A stretch of DNA of 26,981 nt. It comes from a virus. Location: the IMG/VR virus record IMGVR_UViG_3300008266_014512, positions 1 to 26,981 of that record. One strand, written 5' to 3'. Below the pieces are notes generated by a model. The model was not told where the DNA came from, ran no database searches, and saw only the letters and a list, made by a program, of their open reading frames with translations. Within the stretch, counting starts at the first letter, position 1. Every line of letters starts with the position of its first letter. A program made the translations under genes and the position numbers. Below, piece by piece: positions 21,652-26,981 of the stretch.

Positions 21652-23451
21652 TTAGAAGGTTCCCCCGTCTAATACATCATAGACAAGTGCAGTACCATTT
21701 GATTGAAGTACATAGCCAGACGTACCTAATGCTAGTTCGTTATAGCCGTTGGTTGTATTTCCGACTAGAATAGCATTATTAGTCATAGTTGCTTTACCTG
21801 TACCGCCACTTGTACCAGCTAGTGCAGTAGATAAAGTCAACGTATTAGCAACAATAGCTACGTTAATGGTTGAGTTAGCAGCAATTCTAACATGAGTAGC
21901 GTTTGAAGTAAATCCACCAGCAAGTAAGTATGCCTGTAAAGTAGATTGAGTATACCCAACACCAGCTGTATTTACTGTATTATTAGGTGATTCTTGAAGA
22001 CCTTCAAACAGCTTATAGATATCATCAGTTGCGTCACGGAATAGGCCAGTATGCTCATGATCACCTGCATCGGGATTGTAGCTACCAAAGAAGCCAATAT
22101 CTAGCAAGTCAGATGTTGTATTATTAGCTGCTAACTGCAATAATGGGTCGTTAACAATTAAAGTGTTAGCACTAATTGTAATAGTTGTACCAAGTACTGA
22201 CAGGTTACCGGAGATCTGAACATCACCATCAAAGTAGCCAGATACTGAGTGTACATTTTGTGAATAAATTTGATTCCAGCGAACAGCTGTATTACCTAAG
22301 TTATAAGTGATGTTTGCGGACGGTATAATATTAGTATTAACACCACCGTTTACTGAAATAATATCTGCGTACGCATCACCAATAGCAACGTTACCTGTAG
22401 CGGTCAAGTTACGGAACGTTACATCACTAGTTGTTTCAACTGCCTGACCGATATGAACACCAGTTGTGTTTACTGTAACACCGGTACCTGGCCTTACAAA
22501 TAGACCCGTTGTATTAGCGATTATACCACTATTAGCAAGAACGGATAATGTACCAGTGGATGTGATAGTTCCACCTGTTAAGCCGTTACTTGTAGCTACC
22601 GAAGTAACACCTTGATCATCAGCAGCCCAATATGCTGTAGTACCATTTGAGTGTAATACTTGGCCAGCTGTACCTATTGTTCCGTTAGCTAGCAGCCCTA
22701 CAGCTGTATCTAATGCTAATCTTGTGGAATTGGCAACTACAGATGATCCAACAGATAGAGTAGCACCGTTAACAGTACCTGTCGTAAATACACCTATGGA
22801 GTTAGCTACAACTGACGACCCTACTGAATGCACAGCGGCGTTTACTGTACCTGTAGTAAAGGTACCCAATGAGTTTGATATTACAGCTGTACCGACAGAT
22901 ACAACCGCACCATTTACTGTACCAGTTGTAAAGACACCGAGAGAATTAGCTACAACTGCAGACCCAACAGATAGTGTAGCTGAGTTAACTAAACTTGTAG
23001 CAAGAAAAGTATTAGCAACCGCTGTATTAGTTGTTAGAGTATCTGTAGTTTTATTGAATGTTAGACCAGCGTCTGCTCCTAGAGCACCACCATCGTTAAA
23101 TTGAACTTGAGTATCACTACCAGATACACTAGGAGAAGGAGTGTTCCAGTATACTGTTGATCCGTTTGATGTAAGAAGCTGGCCAGCCGTGCCAAAAGAG
23201 CCGTTAGCATATACACCAGTGGGTACAAGATTTGCTACAATTACTTTATCAATACCGCTAGTTGAGTTAGCTACAAGCGCTTGATTAGCGGTTAGTACAC
23301 CAGGATTGCGCTTACCACTGATAGGTACAACAGCGCCGTTGCTACCAATATAAAGTACGTCACCGTTAGCGGTATAAGCAAGTTCACCATTAGCGAGAGA
23401 TCCAGGAGACGCTCCTGTCAAACTTCTTTTAATCTGAATTAAATTTGGCAC
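21652..23451 (-). CDS. Large repetitive tail fibre protein with 24-residue tandem repeats
   Basis: A 599-aa fibre. The N-terminus 'LIQIKRSLTGASPGSLANGELAYTANGDVLYIGSNGAVVPI' belongs to the same attachment-domain family as the 528-aa fibre. Residues ~156-242 contain about 3.6 copies of a 24-residue repeat ('SVGS.VVANS.GVFTTGTVNGA.'). Then comes a block closely similar to the other fibre ('YWAADDQGVTSVAT.NGLTGGTIT'), a 'DVQISGNLSVLGTTITISANTLIVNDPLLQLA' domain and a tip ending 'LDGGTF'. The start codon is GTG, directly after the TAA of the preceding gene, so translation is probably coupled. Confidence 0.85.
   Translation of the reverse strand: MPNLIQIKRSLTGASPGSLANGELAYTANGDVLYIGSNGAVVPISGKRNPGVLTANQALVANSTSGIDKVIVANLVPTGVYANGSFGTAGQLLTSNGSTVYWNTPSPSVSGSDTQVQFNDGGALGADAGLTFNKTTDTLTTNTAVANTFLATSLVNSATLSVGSAVVANSLGVFTTGTVNGAVVSVGTAVISNSLGTFTTGTVNAAVHSVGSSVVANSIGVFTTGTVNGATLSVGSSVVANSTRLALDTAVGLLANGTIGTAGQVLHSNGTTAYWAADDQGVTSVATSNGLTGGTITSTGTLSVLANSGIIANTTGLFVRPGTGVTVNTTGVHIGQAVETTSDVTFRNLTATGNVAIGDAYADIISVNGGVNTNIIPSANITYNLGNTAVRWNQIYSQNVHSVSGYFDGDVQISGNLSVLGTTITISANTLIVNDPLLQLAANNTTSDLLDIGFFGSYNPDAGDHEHTGLFRDATDDIYKLFEGLQESPNNTVNTAGVGYTQSTLQAYLLAGGFTSNATHVRIAANSTINVAIVANTLTLSTALAGTSGGTGKATMTNNAILVGNTTNGYNELALGTSGYVLQSNGTALVYDVLDGGTF
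22727..22986 (-). repeat. 72-bp in-frame tandem repeat inside fibre gene
   Basis: About 3.6 imperfect copies of a 72-base unit encode a 24-residue beta repeat in the 599-aa fibre. Similar cores recur near 22770, 22842 and 22914. Copies differ mostly at synonymous or conservative positions, so the array is old or under protein-level selection. Confidence 0.8.
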
Positions 23452-23856
23452 TTAGAAGGATCCCCCATCTATATCTAATATCTTTACTACGTATTTATCA
23501 GTAGAATTATCATACACGAGAGTGCTATTATTAGAGGGTAGTAACCCCTCCTCTACATCTGCAAGCTGATCTAGTCTTAAGGTACCTACTCCAGATGTAT
23601 CTACAATAATAGCAGATCCGTTCGATGTAACAGTAGATAAACCAGTACCGACAATAGGGATTGTATCTGCGATTACATTGGTCTGCTGTGTTACGAGACT
23701 AATAGGACCAGCGGAGTTATTGGCAGGGGTATCTAAAACATAAGTCACGGCAGGCCTTACTGTAGCTGAATGTACATCGATACGTAACGCAGCTGAATTA
23801 GCTAGCGCTACATTGTATTTATTTTGTGTAGGTTTAATTACTCTGTATTCAGCCAT
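23452..23856 (-). CDS. Small fibre-associated virion protein
   Basis: A 134-aa beta-rich protein. The C-terminal part 'TLRLDQLADVEEGLLPSNNSTLVYDNSTDKYVVKILDIDGGSF' has the 'L..LADV......LVYD..T.KYVVK' pattern found in phage fibre and fibre-adaptor proteins. It ends in 'DGGSF', nearly the same last residues as the 599-aa fibre that follows ('DGGTF'). Its stop codon is directly followed by the GTG of that fibre, and its ATG shares one base with the stop of the preceding gene. A connector or baseplate adaptor for the fibre is likely by position; the family is not firmly identified. Confidence 0.68.
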   Translation of the reverse strand: MAEYRVIKPTQNKYNVALANSAALRIDVHSATVRPAVTYVLDTPANNSAGPISLVTQQTNVIADTIPIVGTGLSTVTSNGSAIIVDTSGVGTLRLDQLADVEEGLLPSNNSTLVYDNSTDKYVVKILDIDGGSF

Positions 23857-24182
23857 TACTTGGTTACTTCGGGTGTGACAGTTACTATACCTTCTACTAT
23901 ACGAGTCACTTCACCTAAACCATTAGTAATCTGTAAGTCATAAACATAACGATCTGGTAGTAGTGTAGCTGTTTGATTAGCAGTTAAAGAAGCCCTTACG
24001 GTACCATTAGAGTAAACACCAATAGTAAAAGAAGTAGCTGAATTAGACGCGTAATTTCGGCGTAGCTGTCCTGCACCGGTATAATCAGTAAGATTAATTA
24101 TATCGTTATTTGCATCTTTAACGATGAAATCAACAGAGAACGTAGAGCCCTGATCTATTGTAAGGTTTACTTTGTCAGCCAT
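23856..24182 (-). CDS. Small Ig-like virion/baseplate protein
   Basis: A 108-aa protein with 'LTIDQGSTFSVDFIVKDANNDIINLTDYTGAGQLRRNY', 'ASLTANQTATLLPDRYVYDLQI' and 'EVTRIVEGIVTVTPEVTK'. This is the outline of small immunoglobulin-like phage proteins related to N-terminal domains of baseplate receptor-binding components ('..qG.tf...f..kd..g..i.LtgYt...qir', '...YvYDl.......v.rl..G...v.p.vT'). It heads the fibre operon behind an exact late promoter and overlaps the next gene by one base (TAATG). It probably anchors fibres (inference). Confidence 0.68.
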   Translation of the reverse strand: MADKVNLTIDQGSTFSVDFIVKDANNDIINLTDYTGAGQLRRNYASNSATSFTIGVYSNGTVRASLTANQTATLLPDRYVYDLQITNGLGEVTRIVEGIVTVTPEVTK

Positions 24183-24213: not shown

Positions 24214-24888
24214 TTAAATCTGACAAGCTTCTTTCATCTTATCAAATGTTGCGTGGTTTTTGAGATAGTCTTCACCCTCTATAATACCCGCAAATCTAAT
24301 GTTTGTAATAATAGCGTATTTAATTGAATCTTCACAGAAGAAAGGAAATGTACTATGCTCACTATGGCCTGGAAAAACTACTATAGTTCCCGATTCATTA
24401 TCTACAGGAGTAAAAAGTAGCTCCTTTCTAGCCCAAAATCCACTCGGAGGGTTTCGTGGGTTATGAAAAACAAGCTTGCCAGCCAAAGCGTGAGGTTCCT
24501 CAGGACTTCTTATTACCTTCGGATAATAAGTGACGATAACCTGATTGCCCATATGCGCGTGAGGAACCGACCAGTCACCTCGTTTTTCTACGTTAGCAAA
24601 CATATGAGCGCGAATTGGTGTTATGTCTTCCGGTCCGAGCTCAACAACTGTTTTTAAATAGTGCCAGAAGTACTGCTCCATAAAGCCAATATACTTATTA
24701 AGTGCTTTTGACTTGTAGAAGAATGATAGGTTGTTTGGAATAGCATGCTTGAAACCACCCTCAGTATACACCATCTTCTTATTAACATAATCTTCAGCTA
24801 TTGAAGCTAGCTCTTCGTTTTCATCAACAGAAAGATGCTTAATCTGATCAACAAGAATGTTTGTTGGCCAGAGCTTCATAAGACGCAT
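24214..24888 (-). CDS. 2-oxoglutarate/Fe(II)-dependent oxygenase-like protein
   Basis: A 224-aa enzyme of the 2OG-Fe(II) oxygenase superfamily that oxidises (usually hydroxylates) a substrate with 2-oxoglutarate and O2. The double-stranded beta-helix motifs are readable: 'NVEKRGDWSVPHAHMGNQVIVTYYP' with candidate iron ligands His110 or His112, 'GKLVFHNPRN', 'GTIVVFPGHSEHSTFPF' with distal His178, and 'YAIITNIRF' with Arg198, which could bind the 2OG carboxylate. The layout resembles the family that reads 'H.H...SGVYY...G.L.F.dPR...FPs...H.v.P'. Its ATG shares one base with the radical SAM stop (TAATG), so the two enzymes are translationally coupled. The substrate is unknown. Confidence 0.82.
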   Translation of the reverse strand: MRLMKLWPTNILVDQIKHLSVDENEELASIAEDYVNKKMVYTEGGFKHAIPNNLSFFYKSKALNKYIGFMEQYFWHYLKTVVELGPEDITPIRAHMFANVEKRGDWSVPHAHMGNQVIVTYYPKVIRSPEEPHALAGKLVFHNPRNPPSGFWARKELLFTPVDNESGTIVVFPGHSEHSTFPFFCEDSIKYAIITNIRFAGIIEGEDYLKNHATFDKMKEACQI

Positions 24889-26288
24889 TATAGTTCCTTC
24901 GGAGTTGATCTAACTTCAGGTAGCATAACTTCTAAATCAGCCGGACCCCAAAGATCTTCTCTTTCAGCTGGCAGCTGATAGTTATCATCTAGGGCCCTAA
25001 TAGCATAAGGAAGATCACCAGTTGCTTCTTCGAATGCTGCAGCGAAAAAAGGTATGTGATCGGAGTAGGCGCTGTCACAAGAAATCTTGAAGTACTCGTC
25101 CTCAAGAAACATGCAAGAACCTTTACACATTTGAAGTACAGGGCATTTAGAACATTCATCCCTAAACTTCCAGTGCGTCGCAGTATTCAGTTCTATCTCA
25201 TCGAACTTAGTAACGTGACCAATTCTATGTGAGTTACCATTTGGCGCTTTTGATACTGCTGTTACGTTCTGGCAAGTCAGAACATTACCTCTTAGATCAA
25301 CAGCAATAGTATTTTCGTTGTCCATACCGCATTTTTGACCAAGAACATTCGCTGGTCTGTGATTACCAAAAGAGTCTAACCACTCGCCAATTCTGTGCCT
25401 GTAGATAAGAAATCTGTTGATCTCTTGATTGTTGATAGCGTCCAGCGTTGTTCTTCTAAATGCTAGGTGTTCTTCATGATTTTGAAGAGTGTTGGCTTTT
25501 CCACCTTCGTCATAAACGTCAATGAACCCACCTTCACCAATATTAAACTTGGCATAAGTGCCTAACAAATCTTCGAACCATTTTTGTATCTTTGCTCTAT
25601 CCATGTTTTCTCTATGAACCATGGAGTTGAAGCTCACCCTACCCTGAGGTAGAAATCTATTGACAAGCTTCATGATCATTTCTTTTTGTTTTGGATTTTC
25701 GAACGGATCAGGACCGCGAACATTTTGACCTGGACCATCATGCGAAATTCCTACCACAAATCCCATTTCATCTAGCCAGTCGATTATATCATCATTGAAC
25801 AATGAACCATTGGTAATGACTAGGAACTTAGTAAATAAAAACTTCTCTCTAAGCTTTTCGGCTAGAGGCTTTAACACCTTCCAGTACACAAAAGGCTCGC
25901 CGCCCCAAAACTCTATCTGATCGGGAGGATCTTTCAACCAGCTGTCTAGGTTTTGAAGAAAGTTATCAACCAACTTGCTGTTTGAGTGGTCGATGTTAGG
26001 TACAAACCTTTGGCTGCAATATTCGCAAGAGTAATTACAAGAAAGACCAAGTTGAATCTTAAGATTTTTGATGTTTGATTTACCAGCAGGTGAGGAGGGC
26101 GAAACTGCCTTAACCTCTTTAGCTTTTGAGAAATCAATTTTGAATAGAGGCTTAACCTCTAGAAGATTACCCTGTTCATCAAAAATCTCAGATGTCATAT
26201 TGTCGTAAACGTAAAAAGTATTTTCCGCTTTGATAAACTCACCTTTTTTATTATAGAAAGGTGATGTACATGCTATAGCAAATTTCAT
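24888..26288 (-). CDS. Radical SAM enzyme with SPASM domain
   Basis: A 466-aa protein. After an unfamiliar ~70-residue N-terminal part, the radical SAM core carries the CxxxCxxC [4Fe-4S]/SAM motif at Cys84, Cys88 and Cys91 ('LSCNYSCEYC') and the 'GGEP' motif at 129-132. The C-terminal SPASM domain is complete: Cys320-x13-Gly-x4-Cys339, then Cys379-x2-Cys382-x5-Cys388-x3-Cys392, then Cys404, enough for two auxiliary [4Fe-4S] clusters. In this superfamily such enzymes modify peptides or proteins (anaerobic sulfatase maturases, RiPP maturases). No sulfatase gene is in the window. AGGAG precedes the ATG. The adjacent tail-type genes and coupled oxygenase suggest a protein substrate, but none is identified. 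Confidence 0.92.
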   Translation of the reverse strand: MKFAIACTSPFYNKKGEFIKAENTFYVYDNMTSEIFDEQGNLLEVKPLFKIDFSKAKEVKAVSPSSPAGKSNIKNLKIQLGLSCNYSCEYCSQRFVPNIDHSNSKLVDNFLQNLDSWLKDPPDQIEFWGGEPFVYWKVLKPLAEKLREKFLFTKFLVITNGSLFNDDIIDWLDEMGFVVGISHDGPGQNVRGPDPFENPKQKEMIMKLVNRFLPQGRVSFNSMVHRENMDRAKIQKWFEDLLGTYAKFNIGEGGFIDVYDEGGKANTLQNHEEHLAFRRTTLDAINNQEINRFLIYRHRIGEWLDSFGNHRPANVLGQKCGMDNENTIAVDLRGNVLTCQNVTAVSKAPNGNSHRIGHVTKFDEIELNTATHWKFRDECSKCPVLQMCKGSCMFLEDEYFKISCDSAYSDHIPFFAAAFEEATGDLPYAIRALDDNYQLPAEREDLWGPADLEVMLPEVRSTPKEL

Positions 26289-26299
26289 AATAACTCCTG

Positions 26300-26457
26300 T
26301 TACGTGACCGTCAGTGTATGCACAACTGCGCTAGTGTATACCTTACCTACGCTGAACTTAACGTCAATAGTGTCTCCAGCAGACAAACCGAGAGCTGAAA
26401 CTTTTGCCTTGCATCTACCATCAACGACGTTAATAACGTCTATCTCTGTATTCAAAA
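26300..26457 (-). pseudogene. C-terminal continuation in +1 frame (frameshifted or recoded end of the beta-rich protein)
   Basis: After the run of four T (minus strand; 26454-26457) the +1 frame reads 'NTEIDVINVVDGRCKAKVS' then 'ALGLSAGDTIDVKFSVGKV' and 'YTSAVVHTLTVT', stopping at 26300. This is convincing beta-sandwich coding sequence with no ATG or ribosome-binding site of its own. Skipping one base of the T run joins it smoothly to the upstream frame (…ETVEID-L-NTEIDV…), giving a protein about 50 residues longer. The cause may be an assembly/sequencing indel, a real frameshift mutation or programmed +1 frameshifting. Confidence 0.6.
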
Positions 26458-26981
26458 TCAATTTCAACTGTTTCGTTTGCGTTCATTGTAGTTGGACCGC
26501 TTGTTACGCATTTTGGTGACCAGTTGATTTGTCTAGAACCATGCATAGGAACAAGAGTAGGGGGAAGTACCTGCTCAGCTTCAATGTTACATGTAAGCCC
26601 TGCGTTAGAATCAACAGTAACCAACCAAAGAGCGTTCGAGAAGTTTGTTGTTTCTGGATACGTTATGCATTGCACTGGCCAAGATTGCATCAGAACATGA
26701 GCAAGCTCAGGTGGCTTTAAGCTTGTAGCCTTGGTCATACCGAAAAGATTGAAAGGCATACCAGAAGTTACGATAAAGTTACCATTTGCGTTCGACATGT
26801 TCCTAGTTGGAAAAACAAATCTTGACATATCATAGTAGTCACTACGATTTGCAAAATTATTCCATGCGATTTCCAAGTCATTGATAGTGACAACATCATC
26901 AGTAATATTTAGATCCAGATGAAATCCATGTACGAACATTGGATCCGGATTTTCTGTTTGTTCGTAAACCCATAGAGCCAT
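26430..26981 (-). CDS. Beta-rich protein of unknown function, probably frameshifted at its end
   Basis: A 183-codon frame whose ATG occupies the last three bases of the window, so the true start and its ribosome-binding site cannot be checked. I do not recognise the family. The sequence has 'FVHGFHLDLNITDDVVTINDLEIAWNNF', 'FVFPTRNMSNANGNFIVTSGMPFNLFGM' and 'ALWLVTVDSNAGLTCNIEAEQVLPPTLVPMHGSRQINW', with several Cys and an alternating beta pattern typical of virion or host-surface proteins. It ends '...ETVEIDFEYRDRRY', but coding-quality sequence continues in the +1 frame to 26300. It is immediately upstream of the radical SAM gene and might be its partner or substrate (speculation). Confidence 0.6.
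   Translation of the reverse strand: MALWVYEQTENPDPMFVHGFHLDLNITDDVVTINDLEIAWNNFANRSDYYDMSRFVFPTRNMSNANGNFIVTSGMPFNLFGMTKATSLKPPELAHVLMQSWPVQCITYPETTNFSNALWLVTVDSNAGLTCNIEAEQVLPPTLVPMHGSRQINWSPKCVTSGPTTMNANETVEIDFEYRDRRY

Follow-up and report, generated by a model that had tools for sequence, protein, structure and literature searches.

Radical SAM/SPASM enzymes of phages are reciprocally associated with fibre genes whose products end in an alternating cysteine tail, and one such enzyme is encoded in the window, the 26,981-nucleotide stretch of IMG/VR record IMGVR_UViG_3300008266_014512. We propose that the enzyme and the tail probably constitute a cassette for fibre-tip maturation: the enzyme would act on the Cys tail – most likely forming thioethers – with a 2OG-Fe(II) oxygenase and an Ig-like protein as accessories.

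Pfam and PHROG family scans show that the surroundings of the two genes are a T4-like neck/tail/fibre module, and the other genes in the window include those for portal, scaffold, sheath, large terminase, neck and head-closure, endolysin-like and Peptidase_S74 fibre proteins; the tail-type neighbours described in the initial annotation are thus borne out. The two ORFs it placed side by side are also present with the positions, strand and lengths given in Table 1, and the single base common to 24214-24888 and 24888-26288 is confirmed, the reverse complement of 24886-24890 reading TAATG.

Table 1. Features of the enzyme region of the window and of its edge
Feature	Position	Strand	Remarks
Radical SAM/SPASM enzyme, 466 aa	24888..26288	(-)	Core CxxxCxxC C84/C88/C91; seven-Cys SPASM domain C320...C404
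2OG-Fe(II) oxygenase, 224 aa	24214..24888	(-)	Ligand set H110-x-H112...H178; cassette accessory
c4, conserved neighbour, very divergent, with C-terminal Ig-like domain	26300..26981	(-)	Broken by 68-nt deletion
108-aa homologue of PHROG 1084 ('unknown function') and PHROG 3304 (L-shaped tail fiber protein assembly)	23856..24182	(-)	Module context
Fibre-like protein, 599 aa, without Cys tail	21652..23451	(-)	Module context
Contig edge; predicted substrate gene expected just past it, outside the window	26981..26981	(-)	Predicted from L002-L005, L007, L035, L188 and L192

The larger protein of the pair matches Pfam Radical_SAM (42.4 bits; cut-off 29.5), the SPASM model TIGR04085 (34.1 bits; cut-off 27) and PHROG 1802, 'radical SAM domain-containing protein' (E 7e-62). 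Across 54 aligned relatives, C84, C88 and C91 of the core are invariant, as is the SPASM series C320-x13-G334-x4-C339 ... C379-x2-C382-x5-C388-x3-C392, and C404, the seventh SPASM Cys, is at least 90% conserved. The protein therefore carries the superfamily motif in full (C-x9-15-G-x4-C / C-x2-C-x5-C-x3-C / C, plus the CxxxCxxC core), and the alignment and the two models scoring above their cut-offs uphold the complete seven-Cys SPASM domain and core that had been recognized initially.

In an AlphaFold2 model of the enzyme (pLDDT 93.9), the N-terminal ~70 residues form a beta-hairpin-like element, which may or may not serve in substrate binding, the role raised for it in the initial annotation; a winged-helix RRE is absent from the N-terminus of the model, where the only elements ahead of the core are strands at residues 2-12, 18-29 and 34-36, without any helix reaching four residues. 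The top Foldseek match is the thioether-forming CteB (5wgg; E 3e-13), with anSME second and then ChlB, TigE, SuiB and SkfB; nearly all of these modify peptides or proteins, and the TM scores are moderate (0.51-0.54 on query). None of the curated NCBIfam maturase models reaches its cut-off, the best being PapB (56.9 bits of 340), with QhpD (53.0 bits; cut-off 453) also among the top matches, and the anSME model TIGR03942 is similarly not reached (52.3 bits of 349). Because these scores fall so far below the cut-offs, the specific reaction is not readable from homology. When the enzyme family is aligned by profile to anSME and CteB, the CGMNGTC of anSME, which includes the extra Aux I ligand position, falls opposite CGMDNEN in the enzyme family, with no Cys at the ligand position, and CteB likewise has no Cys there. 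An open Aux I site, as in CteB, is predicted from the sequence for the phage enzyme.

Relatives of the enzyme in IMG/VR were collected by protein pattern search (102 found, 80 kept), and clustering of the neighbours across these 80 loci recovered fibre-like proteins, 2OG oxygenases and the divergent c4 as recurrent. In many of the fibre-like proteins, encoded beside the enzyme and usually 5' of it, the C-terminus is an alternating Cys tail, e.g. NTNCNCNCDCCC, NNCNCNCACACDCACDCNCQCK or ACACACNC; L004 5207-5626 and L020 3976-4587 are examples of tail-protein genes. The tail (for example CNCNCDCAC) is a repeated C-N/A/D with about 4-12 Cys, and 514 of 549 spacers (94%) are N, A or D (359 Asn, 92 Ala and 63 Asp). 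The proteins bearing it vary from ~70 to 1,080 aa, with the tail mostly at the C-terminus of a fibre-like protein, and fall into 11 body families by BLAST, and several of the bodies match tail fibres; the tail is the constant part, borne on unrelated bodies. TGT and TGC codons are mixed in 76 of 125 tails, which argues that the repeat is kept at the protein level.

There are several variations on this arrangement. The canonical C-terminal tail is missing at a few loci, being partial in L044 and L076 and replaced in L038 (7300-7746) by an N-terminal Cys run, CDCQCDCVCDC, in a Gly-rich protein whose gene comes straight after that of the enzyme, a reversal of the usual arrangement. In one clade (L052, L059, L061 and L067), the gene after the enzyme encodes a Cys run followed by a conserved 'SKIICAKLYE...ADQAYG' domain, and several members have an Asp/Asn beta-hydroxylase homologue downstream. 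Some proteins (in L007, L045, L057 and JWF (below Pfam cut-off)) carry the tail just ahead of a Hint (intein-like) domain, self-cleavage of which could expose or derivatise the Cys tail; the Hint domain directly follows the tail at L007 4107-5099, L045 3822-5252, L057 4955-5950 and L082 9793-11244, and the fibre/Hint protein of JWF is at 29502-30953 of its record. At L091 (3051-9000) and L131, a short protein that ends in STACNCNCNCNC and a few further residues is followed downstream by three to four distinct genes of the radical SAM family, which suggests that there are multi-enzyme versions of the system.

The linkage between tail and enzyme holds in both directions. Tail genes were sought in the stretch around the enzyme in 45 non-redundant enzyme groups (80% identity), and a same-strand gene with a strict alternating tail of at least four Cys is near the enzyme in 33 of them; a three-Cys tail (CxCxC) is found in 38, and the opposite strand gives 0 by either definition. 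For the reverse comparison, viral contigs were scanned with a degenerate DNA pattern (CNCNC[NDTA]C[NDTA]C) built without reference to the enzyme sequence, returning at least 119 viral loci. Among the matches listed, the motif is within 15 aa of the ORF C-terminus in 98, and in 81 of these 98 C-terminal-tail loci a same-strand enzyme gene is present (E<1e-5); 16 of the 17 misses among the matches listed have less than 2.5 kb of downstream sequence. Over all motif loci among the matches listed the enzyme is present in 84 of 119, always downstream and on the same strand, at a median of 1,284 bp. Control scans for the enzyme beside other Cys repeats gave 0/31 for CKCKC and 0/103 for CSCSC (0/134 together), and the difference between tail and control loci has a Fisher p of 4e-39, to be taken as indicative only since the loci are not all independent. 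A DNA-level simple repeat as the origin of the tail was ruled out by the mixed codons together with the lack of enzyme linkage in the control repeats.

Fibre homologues without the tail provide a further contrast, in a small set picked by similarity to two tail-bearing fibre bodies: no CxCxC is present in the homologous fibres of S-CAM1, P-SSM2, S-CAM3, S-SSM7, Mosig and S-TIP37, none of which came up when phage records were searched for the enzyme. The reciprocal association with Cys-tailed fibre genes strongly supports the initial suggestion that the phage enzyme modifies a fibre protein, and makes the tail its putative substrate; nothing points to the other options raised initially, a protein of the host surface or a peptide.

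No Cys tail was found in the window's own proteins. In the window's 60%-identity clade, the tail is present in all eight members with at least 893 bp of upstream sequence, its gene sitting one to four places upstream. With eight of eight members carrying the tail, we infer the same for the window phage, the tail gene of which would lie past the contig edge; this missing upstream gene presumably encodes a Cys tail, which in the clade is often followed by Hint. The window contig and its twin L001 both stop at the ATG of c4, and L001 alone was recovered in an exact search for further sequence past the window edge. Along the ~8.1 kb compared (543 + 7,548 bp), the window differs from L001 only by one 68-nt deletion (window 26430-26438 region; L001 544-611) that frameshifts c4 and is either a strain variant or an assembly artefact; c4 is 249 aa in L001. 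In many relatives c4 is placed between the Cys-tail gene and the enzyme, and this Ig-like neighbour is within 3 kb of the enzyme in 45 of 78 groups. It is undetected in several groups having the enzyme and is extremely divergent (10-21% identity to most, with one invariant column), and its PDB matches are to generic Ig-like domains only, e.g. intimin D0.

The 224-aa oxygenase matches PF13759 weakly (18 bits; cut-off 27) and PHROG 81 2OG-oxygenases solidly (E 1.5e-15), and across 50 relatives it has the conserved Fe ligand triad, with H110 in 50/50, H112 in 45/50 and H178 in 50/50. The initial annotation had coupled it to the radical SAM enzyme, a part of its reading that is more weakly supported: of the 78 enzyme groups, 39 have a same-strand 2OG gene no farther than 3 kb away, which rules it out as an obligate partner, and 2OG genes are also in the fibre modules of phages Mosig and S-TIP37, neither of which came up in the enzyme search. 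Where a 2OG gene is present, its position peaks directly upstream of the enzyme, and across the 78 groups it is never on the opposite strand within 3 kb. No correlation was found between 2OG presence and tail composition. We regard it as an accessory that perhaps hydroxylates Asn/Asp or some other residue of the fibre. In one clade (L058-L070), the downstream genes include a true homologue of Asp/Asn beta-hydroxylase (PF05118, 45.9 bits; cut-off 22.6).

The cassette spans many unrelated tailed phages, including T4-like phages, Achromobacter phages and prophage-like loci. Among cultured phage records the only full-length relatives of the enzyme are in Achromobacter phages JWF and 2-1 (42-44% identity), both of which have the Cys tail as well as the enzyme. 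Seven enzyme loci are present in GTDB genomes, mainly Comamonadaceae/Limnohabitans, and are read as prophages; Limnohabitans isolates 2KL-1, 15K and Rim28 (L206-L208) carry the Cys-tail protein and the enzyme in prophage-like regions and are possible laboratory models. Campylobacter phage radical SAM genes were left out as core-only matches (25% coverage), and no alternating Cys tail was seen in the one Campylobacter stretch checked, that of phage CP220.

In the proposed mechanism, a fibre-like virion protein ending in an alternating C-N/A/D tail would be worked on by the radical SAM/SPASM enzyme during assembly. Most likely, a 5'-deoxyadenosyl radical would abstract H from one of the spacer residues (Asn, Asp or Ala), to whose carbon a Cys thiolate bound at an auxiliary cluster would then be joined as a thioether. 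The outcome would be a rigid cross-linked fibre tip, presumably located on the virion, and the 2OG oxygenase and the Ig-like protein would serve as accessories. In CteB, Aux I has an open site that binds a peptide Cys and in anSME the clusters are fully ligated (PMC6231123), and among known non-alpha thioethers, those of NxxcA link Cys to Asn and those of freyrasin link Cys to Asp (PMC8326336). The alternating NCNC tail includes N-x-x-C spacing. Together with the Foldseek rank of CteB, the lack of the extra Aux I Cys and the available Asn-Cys partners, this spacing favours multiple thioethers, which we take as the probable bond type. The chances appear about even for a fuller version, in which these phages make a polycyclic, non-canonical cross-linked tip on receptor-binding fibres, RiPP-like and sometimes with a tail-exposing Hint, in several tailed-phage lineages.

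Different chemistry on the same tail – conversion of Cys to formylglycine (an aldehyde), as in anaerobic sulfatase maturation, epimerisation, a C-C cross-link or desaturation, possibly alongside 2OG-catalysed hydroxylation of Asn/Asp – seems unlikely, notwithstanding that anSME ranks second among the fold matches and scores similarly as a sequence family, and that clade L058-L070 has the PF05118 Asp/Asn beta-hydroxylase homologue downstream. Against it, the sulfatase motif (C/S-x-P/A-x-R) is absent from the tails listed, and full ligation of Aux I is a trait of anSME (PMC6231123), the extra ligand of which has no Cys counterpart in the phage enzyme. A Cys-rich run with Asn/Asp neighbours suits thioether enzymes better.

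Other proteins bind metals through dense CxC motifs, and CxC repeats resemble metallothionein. The tail might accordingly be a metal- or cluster-binding tip that is modified only to aid that role, or the enzyme might target another cassette protein, e.g. the Ig-like one, a frequent neighbour (45 of 78 groups within 3 kb), but we consider either quite improbable, because metal binding alone needs no radical SAM enzyme, and the Ig-like protein is extremely divergent and undetected in several enzyme groups whereas the tail is constant. Action on a small molecule or a host protein, with the tail linkage reflecting joint exchange of a hypervariable host-recognition module, is highly improbable: pelagimyophage and cyanomyophage fibre modules are hypervariable and gain cassettes, some described as radical SAM related (PMC7029224), but such exchange leaves unexplained the same short tail on 11 body families, the constant tail-then-enzyme order in the motif-scan loci listed, a system common to T4-like phages, Achromobacter phages and prophage-like loci, and the tail-less fibre homologues where the enzyme is absent. 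A small-molecule enzyme was ruled out as the main reading by the linkage to the tail and by best folds that modify peptides or proteins.

The proposed thioether-forming fibre-tip cassette touches on several known systems. PHROG 1802 is the same family (E 7e-62), and phage 2-1 carries its 'radical SAM domain-containing protein' label, which gives no function, substrate or link to Cys-tailed fibres. Possibly related radical SAM cassettes have been noted in the pelagimyophage host-recognition cluster, in a T4-like fibre region (PMC7029224); unlike the window family, these come without a Cys tail, substrate or mechanism in the available part of that account. A literature search, with most subscription papers and preprints outside its coverage, found no paper describing the system. 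Peptide chemistry by radical SAM enzymes has been described for small bacterial peptides and for a few enzymes, and to our knowledge there is no precedent for a tail-fibre tip as a target class of this known superfamily. If correct, the proposed system would be a widespread, new viral route to diversify or harden a receptor-binding surface, would supply a substrate for the PHROG 1802 family, and would offer chemists a natural repeat substrate on a structural protein. The system is directly testable, because phages JWF and 2-1 are cultured and Limnohabitans isolates with prophage-like loci carry it.

Among characterized enzymes, anSME is similarly a radical SAM/SPASM enzyme that modifies Cys in a protein, and the JWF homologue is annotated as anSME; the phage enzyme differs in its score (52.3 versus a cut-off of 349) and in the absence of the extra Aux I ligand Cys, and no sulfatase annotation is present in the two Achromobacter phage stretches examined (JWF and 2-1). 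QhpD forms its Cys-Asp/Glu thioethers within a protein and not in a free peptide (PMC8326336), and is alike in having a protein target – a putative one for the phage enzyme – and in being among its top NCBIfam matches (53.0 bits), although this score is far below the cut-off of 453, and the QhpD target is a bacterial enzyme subunit, not a virion protein. There is also a likeness to CteB/SCIFF and the PapB-type ranthipeptide maturases, which share the radical SAM and SPASM domains with two auxiliary clusters and include the best-matching fold (5wgg); an open Aux I site is predicted here, and the putative substrate is Cys-rich with Asn/Asp acceptor candidates. Unlike these maturases, the phage enzyme is without an RRE and scores far below the family cut-offs. 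The locus falls outside the RiPP class in having neither the RRE nor a short leader precursor beside the enzyme, the tail being mostly the C-terminus of fibre-like proteins of ~70-1,080 aa; the putative substrate is the C-terminus of a virion protein, rather than a short leader-bearing precursor.
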